This document shows positions 4,185 through 10,512 of a DNA stretch of 41,598 bases, piece after piece (the stretch's first letter is position 1; each line of letters begins with the position of its first letter). The position numbers and the translations under genes were made by a program. Below the pieces are notes generated by a model that was not told the DNA's origin, ran no database searches, and saw only the letters and a program-made list of their open reading frames with translations. This DNA is from a virus: positions 1-41,598 of IMG/VR virus record IMGVR_UViG_3300005613_000147. The stretch is one strand, 5' to 3'.

Positions 4185-4895
4185 ATGTTATTGGTCGATT
4201 TTCAAAACTTGTTGAATCAAGCACGCCAGCAAGCTACTGCAGGTGGTCGCAGAGTCGCAGAAGCTGCAGCTACTCCTAGAGGCACTCGCGTTGCTGGCCT
4301 TGCTGCTCCGATTGCGTACGGTGCAGGAAGCCTTGCCCAAGGTGATCTTGCCCGTGGTGTAGGCGAGATTGGCGGCGGTGCTCTTGGTGCCGGTTTAGTT
4401 GGCGGTCTTGCTAGCGCACTCGAAAAAGGCGGCGCTAAAGGGAAGCTTGCTGGTGGCGCTCTCCGTCTTGCTGGTGGCCTTCTCGGCGGTGCAGTTGGCG
4501 GTGGTGTTTTAGGCGGCGCTGCTCAAGCTGCACAGGATGTCGTTGGTGCTGTTACCCGTGGTCAGATGACCCGTGGTGAATCGCCCAGCATTGTCCCTGG
4601 TGCCGGTGGCAAAGGAATCGAAGGTTTTACGACCAGCGACATTGAGCGTATTGTAATGCTCAATCCCAAGGGCGCTGAACAGCTGATGCCTACGTACAAC
4701 CGTATGCGTGATGCTGACATGAATCGTCAGATGCAGTTAAACCAGCAGCTTGGTCAACTCACTGGTGCGTTGAACCAGCAGAAGTACATGGCTCAGCTTG
4801 CAGGCGGCGCTCAGTCCGAATCTGGTGCAACGACCCGCAGCATCTTGACCGCTGCTAATCCCTACGCTCAATCCGCTTTCCAATATAGGGGTTGA
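4185..4895 (+). CDS. Glycine-zipper-rich protein (236 aa)
   Basis: As at 2577/2580, the start is a GTG-ATG pair (4182/4185). Residues 33-120 are an extended run of Gly/Ala/Leu with GxxxG-like spacing (GEIGGGALGAGLVGGLASAL, then LAGGLLGGAVGGGVLGGAA). This is typical of glycine zippers, which pack as transmembrane or pore-forming helices. The last 90 residues are polar and helical, with many Gln and Met residues. A role as a membrane-penetrating or ejected virion protein is plausible but inferred. It is followed four bases later by the next gene. Confidence 0.65.
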   Translation: MLLVDFQNLLNQARQQATAGGRRVAEAAATPRGTRVAGLAAPIAYGAGSLAQGDLARGVGEIGGGALGAGLVGGLASALEKGGAKGKLAGGALRLAGGLLGGAVGGGVLGGAAQAAQDVVGAVTRGQMTRGESPSIVPGAGGKGIEGFTTSDIERIVMLNPKGAEQLMPTYNRMRDADMNRQMQLNQQLGQLTGALNQQKYMAQLAGGAQSESGATTRSILTAANPYAQSAFQYRG

Positions 4896-4899
4896 TCTA

Positions 4900-5310
4900 A
4901 TGGCTGAGTTTTCTTTAGCCGGTAAGTATCCATTTTTGATGGATCCAGCCTTCAAAGGGTTGTCTCCTGAGATACAAAAACAAGTATTTGCAGGAGAAAC
5001 AGCTGGCGCAGAAACCCGTGAACTTGGAAACATCCTTCGAGAAATGAGGGACCCTGAGTTTATGCGTCAACAACTGCAGGTTGCTTCTGAGTTCGATAAA
5101 GAACGCATGAAGGAAGCAGGAAAGTACAAGATGCTTTTCGATCTTCCTGAGCGTTTAATTCAAGCCGCTACTCTCCCTGGACAACTTGCAGCAGAAGGTT
5201 CTCGTGGTATCGCTGCATCCATGATGCAAGCAGGCCAACAGATCCCTCAGCTTGTTAGTTATACGCCGCGTAATTCCTATAGCTATACACCTACTCGTTA
5301 CTTTCAGTAA
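4900..5310 (+). CDS. Hypothetical protein with LAGKYPF N-terminus (136 aa)
   Basis: A 136-residue, mostly helical protein with a conspicuous N-terminus (SLAGKYPFLMDPAF) and a Tyr/Thr/Pro-rich tail (SYTPRNSYSYTPTRYF). The LAGKY motif recurs at the start of the frameshifted gene at 11183, hinting at a shared targeting or interaction peptide. No family recognised. It lies between the glycine-zipper protein and another helical protein, so a virion role is likely by context. Confidence 0.65.
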   Translation: MAEFSLAGKYPFLMDPAFKGLSPEIQKQVFAGETAGAETRELGNILREMRDPEFMRQQLQVASEFDKERMKEAGKYKMLFDLPERLIQAATLPGQLAAEGSRGIAASMMQAGQQIPQLVSYTPRNSYSYTPTRYFQ

Positions 5311-5329
5311 CTTAAGTTAAACTAAAGGG

Positions 5330-5929
5330 ATGGCATTTAACTTCTCGCCAGATTTATACAAGAAAGCTTATGGCAGCTCACCTTTGGTTGATATTGGCTT
5401 TGCTTACGGTTCATCATCTGGCGATCTAAGTGGAGGAGCAAACAAAGTCGGAGGAGGCATGGCATTTGATCCCGTTACTTTAGGTTTAGGCGTTGCTAAC
5501 ATTGGCGCTGGCCTTTTTACCGCAGGACGAGCAAGTCAAACTCGTCGTGATATTGCAGCTGCTCAGATGGCAGCCGCTGGTGATCAGCTGAAATGGCAAA
5601 CGCAACTTGCGCGTGAATCCCAGAAAGCAGGGTTTGCACAAGATATTGCTAACCGTGTTTTTGGTTCCACAGTTGCTCCCGATCTCGAGCTTGGCCGCCA
5701 GCGTGAAGCTGCGATGTTTGCAGCAGGTCCCCTAGGCGAACGTCAACTCGCATTAGATGTCGAGCGTGGTCGTCGGGAGATGGGCTTAAAAGGCTCTGCA
5801 GAAGCCAAGAAACTTCGCCAAGAACAGCGTAGGGCAGAATTAAAGCAAGCCTTAGCTGAGCGTCAGGGACAGATGGCTGGCATGTTTGGCCGCATCGCTC
5901 CTGTCGATGTAAGTACTTTATTTGTGTAG
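5330..5929 (+). CDS. Helical virion-like protein with one hydrophobic segment (199 aa)
   Basis: The N-terminal 45 residues are Gly/Ser/Tyr-rich. A Gly/Ala hydrophobic helix follows (residues about 45-66, DPVTLGLGVANIGAGLFTAG). The rest is a long Gln/Arg/Ala-rich helix ending in a coiled-coil-like stretch (KKLRQEQRRAELKQALAERQ). This resembles internal virion proteins of podoviruses in composition only. It is 10 bases from the next gene, which has an AGGAG-type ribosome site at its start. Confidence 0.65.
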   Translation: MAFNFSPDLYKKAYGSSPLVDIGFAYGSSSGDLSGGANKVGGGMAFDPVTLGLGVANIGAGLFTAGRASQTRRDIAAAQMAAAGDQLKWQTQLARESQKAGFAQDIANRVFGSTVAPDLELGRQREAAMFAAGPLGERQLALDVERGRREMGLKGSAEAKKLRQEQRRAELKQALAERQGQMAGMFGRIAPVDVSTLFV

Positions 5930-8193: not shown

Positions 8194-8198
8194 AACTA

Positions 8199-8360
8199 AT
8201 GGCTAAAGGTAAAATGCCTCCTCAGCTTCTTGAGTACTTCAAGAAAAAAGAAGCCAAGAAAGAGGACGGTACTGAGATGAATGATAAGGAAAAGCGTAAA
8301 GCTGCCTTAGATAAAGCCCGTAAGTACAAAGAGCAAAAAGGCAAAAAGGAAGAAAAATAA
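8199..8360 (+). CDS. Small Lys/Glu-rich basic protein (53 aa)
   Basis: A complete 53-codon gene from ATG 8199 to TAA 8360. Roughly a third of its residues are lysine (e.g. YFKKKEAKKEDG, then KARKYKEQKGKKEEK). The stop codon forms the start of a 9-bp inverted repeat that separates it from terL. It belongs to the set of small basic proteins in this phage; nucleic-acid binding is inferred from charge only. Confidence 0.65.
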   Translation: MAKGKMPPQLLEYFKKKEAKKEDGTEMNDKEKRKAALDKARKYKEQKGKKEEK

Positions 8361-8387
8361 GATAGCATCAAGTAACAAGCTATCTTA
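8358..8387 (+). repeat. Hairpin immediately before terL start
   Basis: Perfect 9-bp inverted repeat: TAAGATAGC (8358-8366) and GCTATCTTA (8379-8387) with a 12-base loop. It includes the TAA of the upstream gene and ends five bases before the terL GTG. No T-run follows, so it is not a classic terminator. It occupies the place where a ribosome-binding site would be expected, so a translational or mRNA-processing role is possible. Confidence 0.6.
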
Positions 8388-8392
8388 GTTCC

Positions 8393-9919
8393 GTGCCGAG
8401 TTATACGCACCTTGCCTATCGTCGTAATGCGCGGGCTGCGGCACGTAACCAACAAATCAAGAAGCCAAAGAACGCGAAGGACCTTGAGAAGGCTCGTGAA
8501 GACTTTGGCTTTTTCTGTGAGTATGTAGCAGATAAGCCACCTGCCACCCATCACCTGGATTGGCATCGGCATTTTGTTACCAATGAAGATAGTAGTTGTT
8601 TAATAAAGATTGCTGGACCGAACGTTGATCTCCTGGCTCCCCGTGGTTCAGCTAAATCAACGGTCTTGGGTCTACTGACTGCATGGGCTATTGGCATCCA
8701 CACTCATGCCAAGATGCCGCTGCAGATTCTTTACTTGTCGTACACGGTTGATATTGCACGATCCAAGTCAGCAACCATTAAACACATCATTGAAAGCAAA
8801 CGGTACCAAGAGGTCTTCCCTTCTGTTCGCTTGATGAAGAACGTCACCAGTAATGAGTACTGGTCAATTGATCACAAGTTTGCTGGTATTGACACCACTG
8901 GTGATGAACAATTCACACTCTGCGCTGCAGGTCTAAAGGGTTCCGTGACCTCCAAGCGTTCGCACCTGGTAATGATTGATGACGCCATTAAGTCAGCTGC
9001 GGATATCTCCAACCCTGACATCAGGAAACAGATGCAGGACAACTGGAATGCTGTGATTGCACCGACGATGTTTGAAGGTGCCAGGGCGATCTGCCTTGGT
9101 ACTCGCTTTAGGCATGACGACATCCACTCCACGACATTCAACGAACAAAACAACTGGACTCAGATTGTTCTTTCTGCCATCCTCAACAATCCAAAGACTG
9201 GCGAAGAAGAGTCCTACTGGCCTGAGATGTGGTCACTGGAGTACTTGAAGGAGAAGAAACATCAAGCACCGATTGCCTTCTCATTCCAGTACATGAATCA
9301 GATCGTTCGTCAGAACGAGCTTTCTCTTGCACCAGAACTGATTGTTAAAGCAGAGATCTCAACAGAGTTCGACACGCTTGGCGTTGGTGTTGACCTTTCT
9401 GCTGGCACCAAGGAAAAGAATGACTACACGGTCATGATCTTGGGTGGTCGCATCGAAGATCGCATCCACATCATTGATTACAGACGGATCAGGGTGATGG
9501 GTAACCTCGAGAAACTCGATGCAATGAAGGAGCTTCTCAATGATTGGTCAGTGCTGGGGCAAGACGCTAACGGTAATTACTTCCCAACGTATTCGACGTG
9601 TGACATCTGGTCAGAAGCTGTCCAGTACCAGGCCTCCCTGGAAGCAGACTTCAAGCGGGTTTGCTTGAATAACGAAGGTCTCTACAACTTGATTTGGCAT
9701 CCAGTCAAAGGATTCCGTGCAGACAAGCTGGCACGTTTCCGTGGAATCATGGGCATGTTTGAAGACCGAAAGATTATCTTTAATCGTTATCGGAACTTCA
9801 CTAATCTCTTCGAGGAACTCACAAACTTCGGCGTAAGTAGTCATGATGACACGGTCGACGCGTTAGTATGGCTAGTGACAGGTCTTATGCGCAAAGGCCA
9901 ATTGCATATTGATTATTGA
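8393..9919 (+). CDS. terL: Terminase large subunit
   Basis: The motor and nuclease that cuts and pumps phage DNA into the prohead at the portal. In the 508 residues the N-terminal ATPase shows Walker A at about 83-90 (PRGSAKST) and Walker B at 191-197 (HLVMIDD). The C-terminal RNase H-like nuclease has an acidic residue at D334 (GVGVDLSAGT) and a late acidic cluster at 484-489 (HDDTVD). The start is GTG 8393, just after a hairpin and without a clear Shine-Dalgarno site; the length is normal for TerL. About 25 bases after its stop lies a second, degraded copy of its last 19 codons. The packaging-site type cannot be told from sequence alone. Confidence 0.95.
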   Translation: MPSYTHLAYRRNARAAARNQQIKKPKNAKDLEKAREDFGFFCEYVADKPPATHHLDWHRHFVTNEDSSCLIKIAGPNVDLLAPRGSAKSTVLGLLTAWAIGIHTHAKMPLQILYLSYTVDIARSKSATIKHIIESKRYQEVFPSVRLMKNVTSNEYWSIDHKFAGIDTTGDEQFTLCAAGLKGSVTSKRSHLVMIDDAIKSAADISNPDIRKQMQDNWNAVIAPTMFEGARAICLGTRFRHDDIHSTTFNEQNNWTQIVLSAILNNPKTGEEESYWPEMWSLEYLKEKKHQAPIAFSFQYMNQIVRQNELSLAPELIVKAEISTEFDTLGVGVDLSAGTKEKNDYTVMILGGRIEDRIHIIDYRRIRVMGNLEKLDAMKELLNDWSVLGQDANGNYFPTYSTCDIWSEAVQYQASLEADFKRVCLNNEGLYNLIWHPVKGFRADKLARFRGIMGMFEDRKIIFNRYRNFTNLFEELTNFGVSSHDDTVDALVWLVTGLMRKGQLHIDY

Positions 9920-9940
9920 TGGAACGTTTAAACCCATCCA

Positions 9941-10004
9941 GACGATTTTAGTTTGGTTGGTCACTGGTCTATCGAGGAAGGGTCAGCTTCATATTGATTA
10001 CTAA
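9941..10004 (+). pseudogene. Vestigial second 3' end of terL
   Basis: Codons from 9945 to the TAA at 10002-10004 read ILVWLVTGLSRKGQLHIDY. The real TerL ends ALVWLVTGLMRKGQLHIDY, so 17 of 19 residues match. Yet most synonymous positions differ (for example GTT TGG TTG GTC ACT against GTA TGG CTA GTG ACA, and TAC TAA against TAT TGA). Upstream homology fades into GACG with a one-base offset, and no start or full frame exists. The pattern fits the leftover tail of a diverged terL allele after recombination, not a fresh tandem duplication. Confidence 0.8.
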
Positions 10005-10039
10005 CCCTTAGAATTTAAAAAAAGGAAAAACGTTTTGCC

Positions 10040-10333
10040 GTGGGTCCGGAATACGTAGCGATAGCGTTAACTGCTTGTATCTCAGCATTAACCGGCGGTT
10101 CTTGGATTGCGAACCGCATTATGGATCGCCAAAAAGAAAGAATGGAACAGGCTTTTAGTTACATCAATTCGCAAAAAAGGCGGATTGATTGTCTAGAAGA
10201 TGACCTGAAACAACTGCCAATTGAATACGTTTTAAAGGTGGATTTTCTTAGGGAGATCCAGGAAATGCATGAGAACTTTAGACAAATCAACACTAAGCTT
10301 GATAAGCTAATGGAAAAGCTTTTGTCGAAATGA
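10040..10333 (+). CDS. Membrane-anchored coiled-coil protein (97 aa)
   Basis: GTG start at 10040 with AAAGGA upstream. One N-terminal transmembrane segment (residues 5-24, YVAIALTACISALTGGSWIA) is followed by a basic, then heptad-like helix to the end (MHENFRQINTKLDKLMEKLL). The design is like small phage membrane proteins of the holin, spanin or XhlA kind, but no family is certain. It overlaps the next gene by four bases (ATGA), so the two are coupled. Confidence 0.65.
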   Translation: MGPEYVAIALTACISALTGGSWIANRIMDRQKERMEQAFSYINSQKRRIDCLEDDLKQLPIEYVLKVDFLREIQEMHENFRQINTKLDKLMEKLLSK

Positions 10334-10512
10334 GCTACATCCTTGAGGTCCAGGAAGACGAAAACGGCGAGCCCTTTATCACTCTTCCTGATGAACTGAT
10401 CGAGGAACTTGGTTGGCTAGAAGGTGACCTCCTTGATTGGGATATTCGTGCCAACGGAATCATTCTAAGCAAAGTAAATGATTCTGCCGGTTACGAAGTT
10501 ATAGAAGAGTAA
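10330..10512 (+). CDS. AbrB/MazE-like small protein (60 aa)
   Basis: The sequence follows the swapped-hairpin AbrB/MazE pattern: a strand (YILEVQEDENG), ITLPDELIEELGWLEGD, then DWDIRANGIILSKV. In that family the fold binds DNA as a dimer or serves as an antitoxin. No toxin gene lies next to it. It is coupled (ATGA) to the membrane coiled-coil gene. It is acidic overall, unusual for a DNA-binding AbrB protein, so the role is uncertain. Confidence 0.65.
   Translation: MSYILEVQEDENGEPFITLPDELIEELGWLEGDLLDWDIRANGIILSKVNDSAGYEVIEE

Follow-up and report, generated by a model that had tools for sequence, protein, structure and literature searches.

Mobile endonuclease ORFs (mORFs) have been described in the fungal mitochondrial genes atp6, atp9, cox2 and nad3 of Glomus sp. 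and atp6 of Allomyces macrogynus (PMC3630166). According to the available text of that source, the endonuclease ORF lies at the 3′ end of a gene, a foreign C-terminal end is fused to the gene in frame, and the native end is displaced downstream, leaving the protein nearly unchanged. Displaced native ends are 91-98% identical to those of close relatives and inserted ends 64-81%; the enzymes are LAGLIDADG or GIY-YIG endonucleases and the elements are about 1 kb long. In phages, freestanding homing genes such as seg and mob of T4 and the T5orf172 and IPA-HNH genes of ICP1 are found beside terminase genes (PMC10448857). As presented in the available parts of that article, they are small nuclease genes next to an essential gene, often a terminase gene, patchy in presence and carrying flanking sequence along; a replacement gene end is not described there, and 'recod' occurs 0 times in its main text. 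Truncated HNH endonuclease genes are common in lactococcal skunaviruses (56/268), and an HNH gene located between terL and portal is described as well (PMC12724721, in the sections available); 'duplicat' and 'recod' occur 0 times in the main text of that paper, which mentions no duplicated or recoded target-gene end. Finally, the home-and-rescue gene drive HomeR, a synthetic, Cas9-guided system engineered in Drosophila, rescues an essential gene by means of a recoded 3′ end, 22 or 27 residues long, which also withstands cutting and restricts gene conversion with the native allele (PMC7968924, in the sections available). Our search of the open-licence PMC literature, in which an absence is weak evidence, found no phage homing endonuclease with a recoded target-gene end, and the accessible portions of PMC3322345 and PMC1524935 contain none.

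We analyzed a 41,598-nucleotide stretch of viral DNA, IMG/VR record IMGVR_UViG_3300005613_000147 (hereafter the window), in which the gene of the large terminase subunit, terL, is followed by a second copy of its own 3′ end (Table 1). The terL product ends in ...LVWLVTGLMRKGQLHIDY, and the second copy (TTA...TAA) encodes LVWLVTGLSRKGQLHIDY followed by a stop, with 17 of 18 residues as in the terL end. This 18-residue match has a BLOSUM62 score of 91, versus a maximum of 42 in 300 shuffles. At the nucleotide level the copies are 72% identical over 53 nt at a spacing of 85, and a comparison of the 19 codons from Leu to the stop showed 6 identical, 12 synonymous (including the stop codon) and 1 non-synonymous. 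An independent assembly, IMGVR_UViG_3300005512_000388 (L003/L083), carries this tandem too; compared with the window over 11.6 kb, it shows 10 mismatches and 2 gaps (99.9% identity). The duplicated, recoded terL end announced by the original prediction is therefore real, with the residues kept, the codons mostly different and the tandem seen twice. It does not follow the terL stop immediately, as had been claimed, but after an intervening stretch of 28 nt (9920-9947), and it lies in the +1 frame relative to terL.

Table 1. Features of the terL region of the window
Feature	Position	Strand	Evidence
terL	8393-9919	+	508 aa; PHROG terminase large subunit, E 2.8e-75
Native terL body	8393-9846	+	PHROG match; 93% to L006 body
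Foreign 3′ end with recoded codons, in use as the in-frame end of terL	9847-9919	+	HDDTVDALVWLVTGLMRKGQLHIDY then stop; identity to L006 falls
Vestige of a putative HNH homing-endonuclease gene	9919-9951	+	ATG overlaps terL stop (TGATG); MERLNPSRRF then stop
Displaced native terL 3′ end, out of frame, untranslated as terL	9948-10004	+	54/57 to L006
Native leader and downstream gene	10005-10333	+	Continuous with displaced end
Downstream gene	10040-10333	+	97 aa; best PHROG match phrog_462 'lipoprotein'

A scan for TerL of viral contigs, many of them partial, gave 598 confirmed stretches, of which the best 80 were taken as loci. Among these 80 loci, the terL end is in tandem in L003 and single in the other 79, and the closest terL body is that of L006, with 93% of body columns identical. 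The native terL end of L006 matches the downstream copy of the window at 54 of 57 positions but the in-frame end at only 37 of 57, and it is followed, as the downstream copy is, by the same leader and gene, which are also contiguous with the native terL end in L005 and L007. Identity between the window and L006 shows no drop until about position 9847 and falls sharply there, to 0.63 in the last 51 nt of terL and 26/42 in the last 42 nt. Blastn aligned the window with L006 in two segments, 8196-9885 (91.7%) and 9947-10370 (96.5%); the foreign sequence is limited to about 100 bp, and both flanks are L006-like. Because the intact end of L006 matches the downstream copy and continues into the same leader and gene, the native end is the out-of-frame copy, now displaced, and the foreign end is the one in frame. 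It had been assumed that the second copy was a newcomer behind the true end; the comparison with L006 reverses these roles.

Full-length versions of the locus were found in related phages. A degenerate pattern for the terL end followed by TGATG matched 19 viral contigs: in 12 of them an ORF beginning M(E/K)R(L/V)NP comes straight after terL, in six the native downstream gene is found there, and the remaining one is L083. A profile scan with the endonuclease matched 42 viral loci, 40 of which have the terL end directly upstream of the endonuclease gene, the exceptions being L134, which begins inside the gene, and L143, which is unrelated. A second terL end, or remnant, follows the endonuclease ORF in 39 of the 39 loci examined (the 42 less L134, L141 and L143); L134 does show a second terL end, and L141 ends inside the ORF. 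The full element consists of a recoded replacement end for terL and, after it, a gene for an HNH-type endonuclease of 142-162 aa whose start usually lies within the terL stop codon (TGATG or TAATG); on its right it is flanked by the host's native terL end. The replacement end covers the last ~25 codons of terL and the whole element about 0.5 kb. The element also occurs in a second subfamily of terL, about 65% identical (L115, L116, L117, L120 and L121). A junction pattern matched 33 contigs, with one new partial element (L156) and one chance match (L152), and the only degenerate ORF among the inspected contigs was that of L083.

The endonuclease ORF matched phrog_3106 'HNH endonuclease' (E 6e-31) and has the invariant motif C..CGY...ALDFDH...C..CH; its Pfam HNH match was weak, at 19.5 bits below the gathering score of 21.4. 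From its sequence, we predict that the enzyme is of the HNH type. The AlphaFold model had a pLDDT of 82 and a pTM of 0.64; a fold search of the PDB with this model gave no matches at E ≤ 0.001, and a search by sequence found no related solved structure. A search of prokaryote genomes for relatives of this HNH gene gave 83 pattern stretches, none of them confirmed. We also looked for a duplicated gene end beside related HNH genes in EFA-2, KP34, 536_P3, SH1, CRP-9 and Spooky, and none was convincing: EFA-2 and KP34 scored 32 versus shuffle maxima of 29 and 31, and the other four phages scored below theirs. The positive controls, 7 of the 41 terL-associated loci, all stood out (73-98 versus at most 39 in shuffles). 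As these six phages have no convincing duplicated gene end, the replacement-end design is not general for this HNH family.

In the window, the spacer between the two copies corresponds to the start of the endonuclease gene (ATGGAACGTTTAAACCCA). TGATG is followed here by GGAACGTTTAAACCCA, and the first 18 nt match the endonuclease starts of L110 and L130 at 17 positions and those of L104 and L111 at 15, and the TGATG junction is the same as in full-length elements. The vestige keeps 10 codons, with an interior of about 130 codons deleted; it is only about 20-33 nt long, with an ambiguous right edge where the final bases might instead be part of the native terL end. The replacement end of L110 has the same last residues as that of the window (GLMRKGQLHIDY). 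Of all in-frame terL ends (tails) that were compared, the 12 nearest to the window tail come from endonuclease-bearing loci, with 63/72 identical positions for L102 and 56/72 for the nearest element-free locus. Given a spacer that matches the endonuclease start and the intact elements of the relatives, the window is very probably a deletion derivative of a putative homing endonuclease element that carries a recoded 3′ end. In viral_contigs, no exact-DNA donor was found for the window tail or spacer, both of which occur in L083 only, and L083 was also the only other short-spacer deletion derivative. No relative had near-identical tandem copies, which the original prediction had named as the mark of a simple duplication or an artefact; the only other tandem is that of L003/L083, a genome 99.9% identical to the window, and its copies differ as those of the window do.

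Tails and remnants have separate histories. When comparisons were binned by terL-body identity from 0.75 to 0.95, remnant-to-native identity was 0.70, 0.75, 0.77, 0.83 and 0.94, and that of native ends was 0.70, 0.76, 0.88, 0.92 and 0.99. The rise for remnants was weaker than for native ends in the top bins, with 14, 8 and 1 comparisons in the three highest remnant bins, and tail identity was flat across the same bins (0.63-0.70). The remnant beat the tail against the nearest element-free relative in 22 of 35 comparisons, with 4 ties, and in 9 of 17 at a body identity of at least 0.8; the contrast between remnant and tail is clear for close relatives only. The binned identities, native-like for the remnant and pointing to a separate history for the in-frame tail, bear out the earlier claim that each copy had been under protein-level selection when the two were joined.

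Codon usage was compared between 29 distinct element-bearing tails, including that of the window, and 70 distinct element-free ends. The Val codon GTA in LVW was present in 25/29 element-bearing tails and 1/70 element-free ends (Fisher p 3e-18), Thr ACN at DDxVDA in 20/29 and 5/70 (p 7e-10), and a GGC codon in 18/29 and 4/70 (p 6e-9); these p values ignore relatedness, with no phylogenetic correction. The window tail has the element-specific codons ACG, GTA and CTT. The element-type Thr codon at DDxVDA is also present in the terL ends of the element-free L014, L026, L056 and L008-L010, which might represent donor lineages or alleles that are resistant or have been cured. Correlations over 28 distinct elements link the first 27 nt of the tail to the endonuclease (partial r 0.39, p 0.007) rather than to the terL body (partial r 0.15, p 0.12), and link the remnant to the terL body (0.81) rather than to the endonuclease (0.02). 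In the same 28 elements, the last 45 nt of the tail track the body more than the endonuclease, so that the tail did not travel with the element purely as one block; this may reflect conversion, or adaptation to the TerL of the host.

A recoded replacement end is also found at a second insertion point. L142, whose endonuclease is 39% identical, has a 76-codon replacement end that differs from its remnant by 40 synonymous and 7 non-synonymous codons, 29 being identical, so that the design is present at this second point as well, although its remnant beat its tail in only 40 of 79 comparisons. In several loci (L105-L107, L114, L116, L120, L124 and others) the endonuclease ORF does not stop before the displaced terL end but reads through into it in a different frame (negative gaps), so that the C terminus of these endonucleases is partly encoded by terL DNA. 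In L123 (3227-3410) and L129, about 180 bp of extra DNA lies between the endonuclease gene and the terL remnant, with a small ORF (TIILDTQEFLEEITQD...) that is a possible cargo of the element. In L118, the unusual residues YLLTGLMR, a rare protein variant, are encoded by both tail and remnant, for the most part with different codons.

The layout of the relatives corresponds to that of the fungal mORFs, with a foreign end in frame, an endonuclease ORF next and the native end displaced; in the window, tail and remnant are present and the ORF is down to 10 codons. By analogy, the phage element would work like the fungal mORFs, although enzyme, genome and target differ and we do not count it among them: it has an HNH-type enzyme, resides in terL of phage contigs, measures about 0.5 kb and recurs in some 40 contigs with shared codon-level markers. 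With freestanding phage homing genes, it shares its form as a small, predicted nuclease gene by an essential gene, the carriage of flanking sequence, the same insertion point in a conserved gene and a patchy presence, the distant L142 using a second point; unlike them, it replaces the 3′ end of its target. The decaying HNH genes of skunaviruses resemble the decayed HNH gene of the window. The element resembles HomeR in that a recoded 3′ end, of about 25 residues in terL, would restore an essential gene; it is natural, and its cutting, immunity and limitation of gene conversion would have to parallel those of the synthetic drive.

The architecture, foreign tail, native remnant, endonuclease vestige and patchy distribution are read from the DNA itself, and we infer the cutting, the homing, the immunity through recoding and the order of events as follows. 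A selfish endonuclease gene would insert into the 3′ end of terL and bring its own recoded replacement ending. The endonuclease would cut an unoccupied terL near the conserved HDDxVDALVW codons, a motif that we take to be part of the TerL nuclease active site, and the break would be repaired from the element-bearing genome, so that the element is copied in. The replacement end would give a full TerL at once, and the displaced native end would be retained as right-hand homology. Because the replacement end is recoded, neither re-cutting nor repair stopping before the endonuclease gene would be expected, the recoded tail withholding homology ahead of that gene. In the window, an internal deletion would then have taken nearly all of the endonuclease gene, with the replacement ending staying in use. 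We consider it likely that these loci form a natural 'home-and-rescue' class in phages, in which minimal homing genes target the catalytic codons of an essential gene, carry a recoded rescue end that both resists re-cutting and blocks incomplete repair, and have spread across terL subfamilies that are ~65% identical. The duplicated terL end would then be what a selfish element leaves at its loss stage, and the other stages of its life cycle, unoccupied and occupied, are seen in relatives. Full elements look like a natural counterpart, in an essential phage gene, of the recoded-rescue design of gene drives, and their dozens of natural recoded versions make it testable whether recoding acts against cutting, against incomplete repair or against both. 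In addition, the 3′ end and the body of terL, which commonly serves as a phage marker gene, can differ in history.

Phage genomes are mosaic, and ordinary recombination might have inserted the terL end of a related phage illegitimately, together with a downstream piece and without any mobile element; the window tail does resemble the terL end of an about 80% related phage. We regard this as improbable for the window, given that only about 100 bp are foreign between L006-like sides, that the spacer is the start of an endonuclease gene (17/18) and that some 40 contigs show this junction, in this very position, with a full endonuclease gene, and the full elements of the relatives already refute it as a general cause. 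A single crossover with another phage was rejected, the insert being flanked on both sides by L006-like sequence. Of the two routes that had been proposed for the duplication, allelic replacement by recombination with a related phage and a mobile element bringing a recoded gene end, the second is what the relatives display, with a recoded terL end, TGATG and the HNH endonuclease gene, and the native terL end. An intein or group I intron in terL was also rejected, as the terL frame stops at its own stop before the insert.

Alternatively, the HNH gene might have been domesticated as a packaging nuclease that acts together with TerL, and its capture would have produced the duplicated end as a by-product. 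HNH nucleases next to terminase genes can be packaging components, as documented in the accessible sections for HrdP, present in 89/89 skunaviruses (PMC12724721), and for the HK97 case discussed in PMC10448857. Here, the endonuclease gene was not found in any of the 79 nearest element-free terL loci (next 60 nt inspected; best 80 of 598), where a packaging-associated gene would be conserved throughout the phage group. Its presence on the terL tree is patchy, with 12 changes, at least 8 of them forced by well-supported branches, in a quick tree of 122 rows, 39 with the element (window included) and 83 without, the latter chosen as nearest to the window. The endonuclease has also been lost in the lineage of the window, and a packaging role leaves the recoded terL end unexplained, which makes this reading very unlikely. 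That the two similar copies lie side by side because the terL end was duplicated locally and then diverged is barely credible: it is the translated copy that has diverged and the untranslated one that agrees with L006 (54/57), the reverse of expectation, the differences are mostly synonymous and an endonuclease start lies between the copies, so that the L006 comparison already refutes it. An assembly artefact, conceivable in metagenome contigs, has a negligible probability, as two assemblies with 10 differences over 11.6 kb share the tandem and about 40 other contigs have the architecture with full elements.

Two further observations were made in and near terL. In Synechococcus phage S-EIV1 (L002; KJ410740.1, about 4775-5775), terL is annotated at about 846 codons and has an insert of about 330 codons after the residue corresponding to residue ~199 of the TerL of the window. 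By eye, this insert starts with CLVGDT, ends with HNFIANGFNVLNC and is intein-like with an HNH-like region, and would be a second kind of mobile element in terL. Lastly, a conserved leader (10005-10039; roughly CTTAGAATT, then an A-rich run) separates, in many relatives, the native terL stop from the next gene, which starts with GTGGG..., and may be a promoter or ribosome-binding region.
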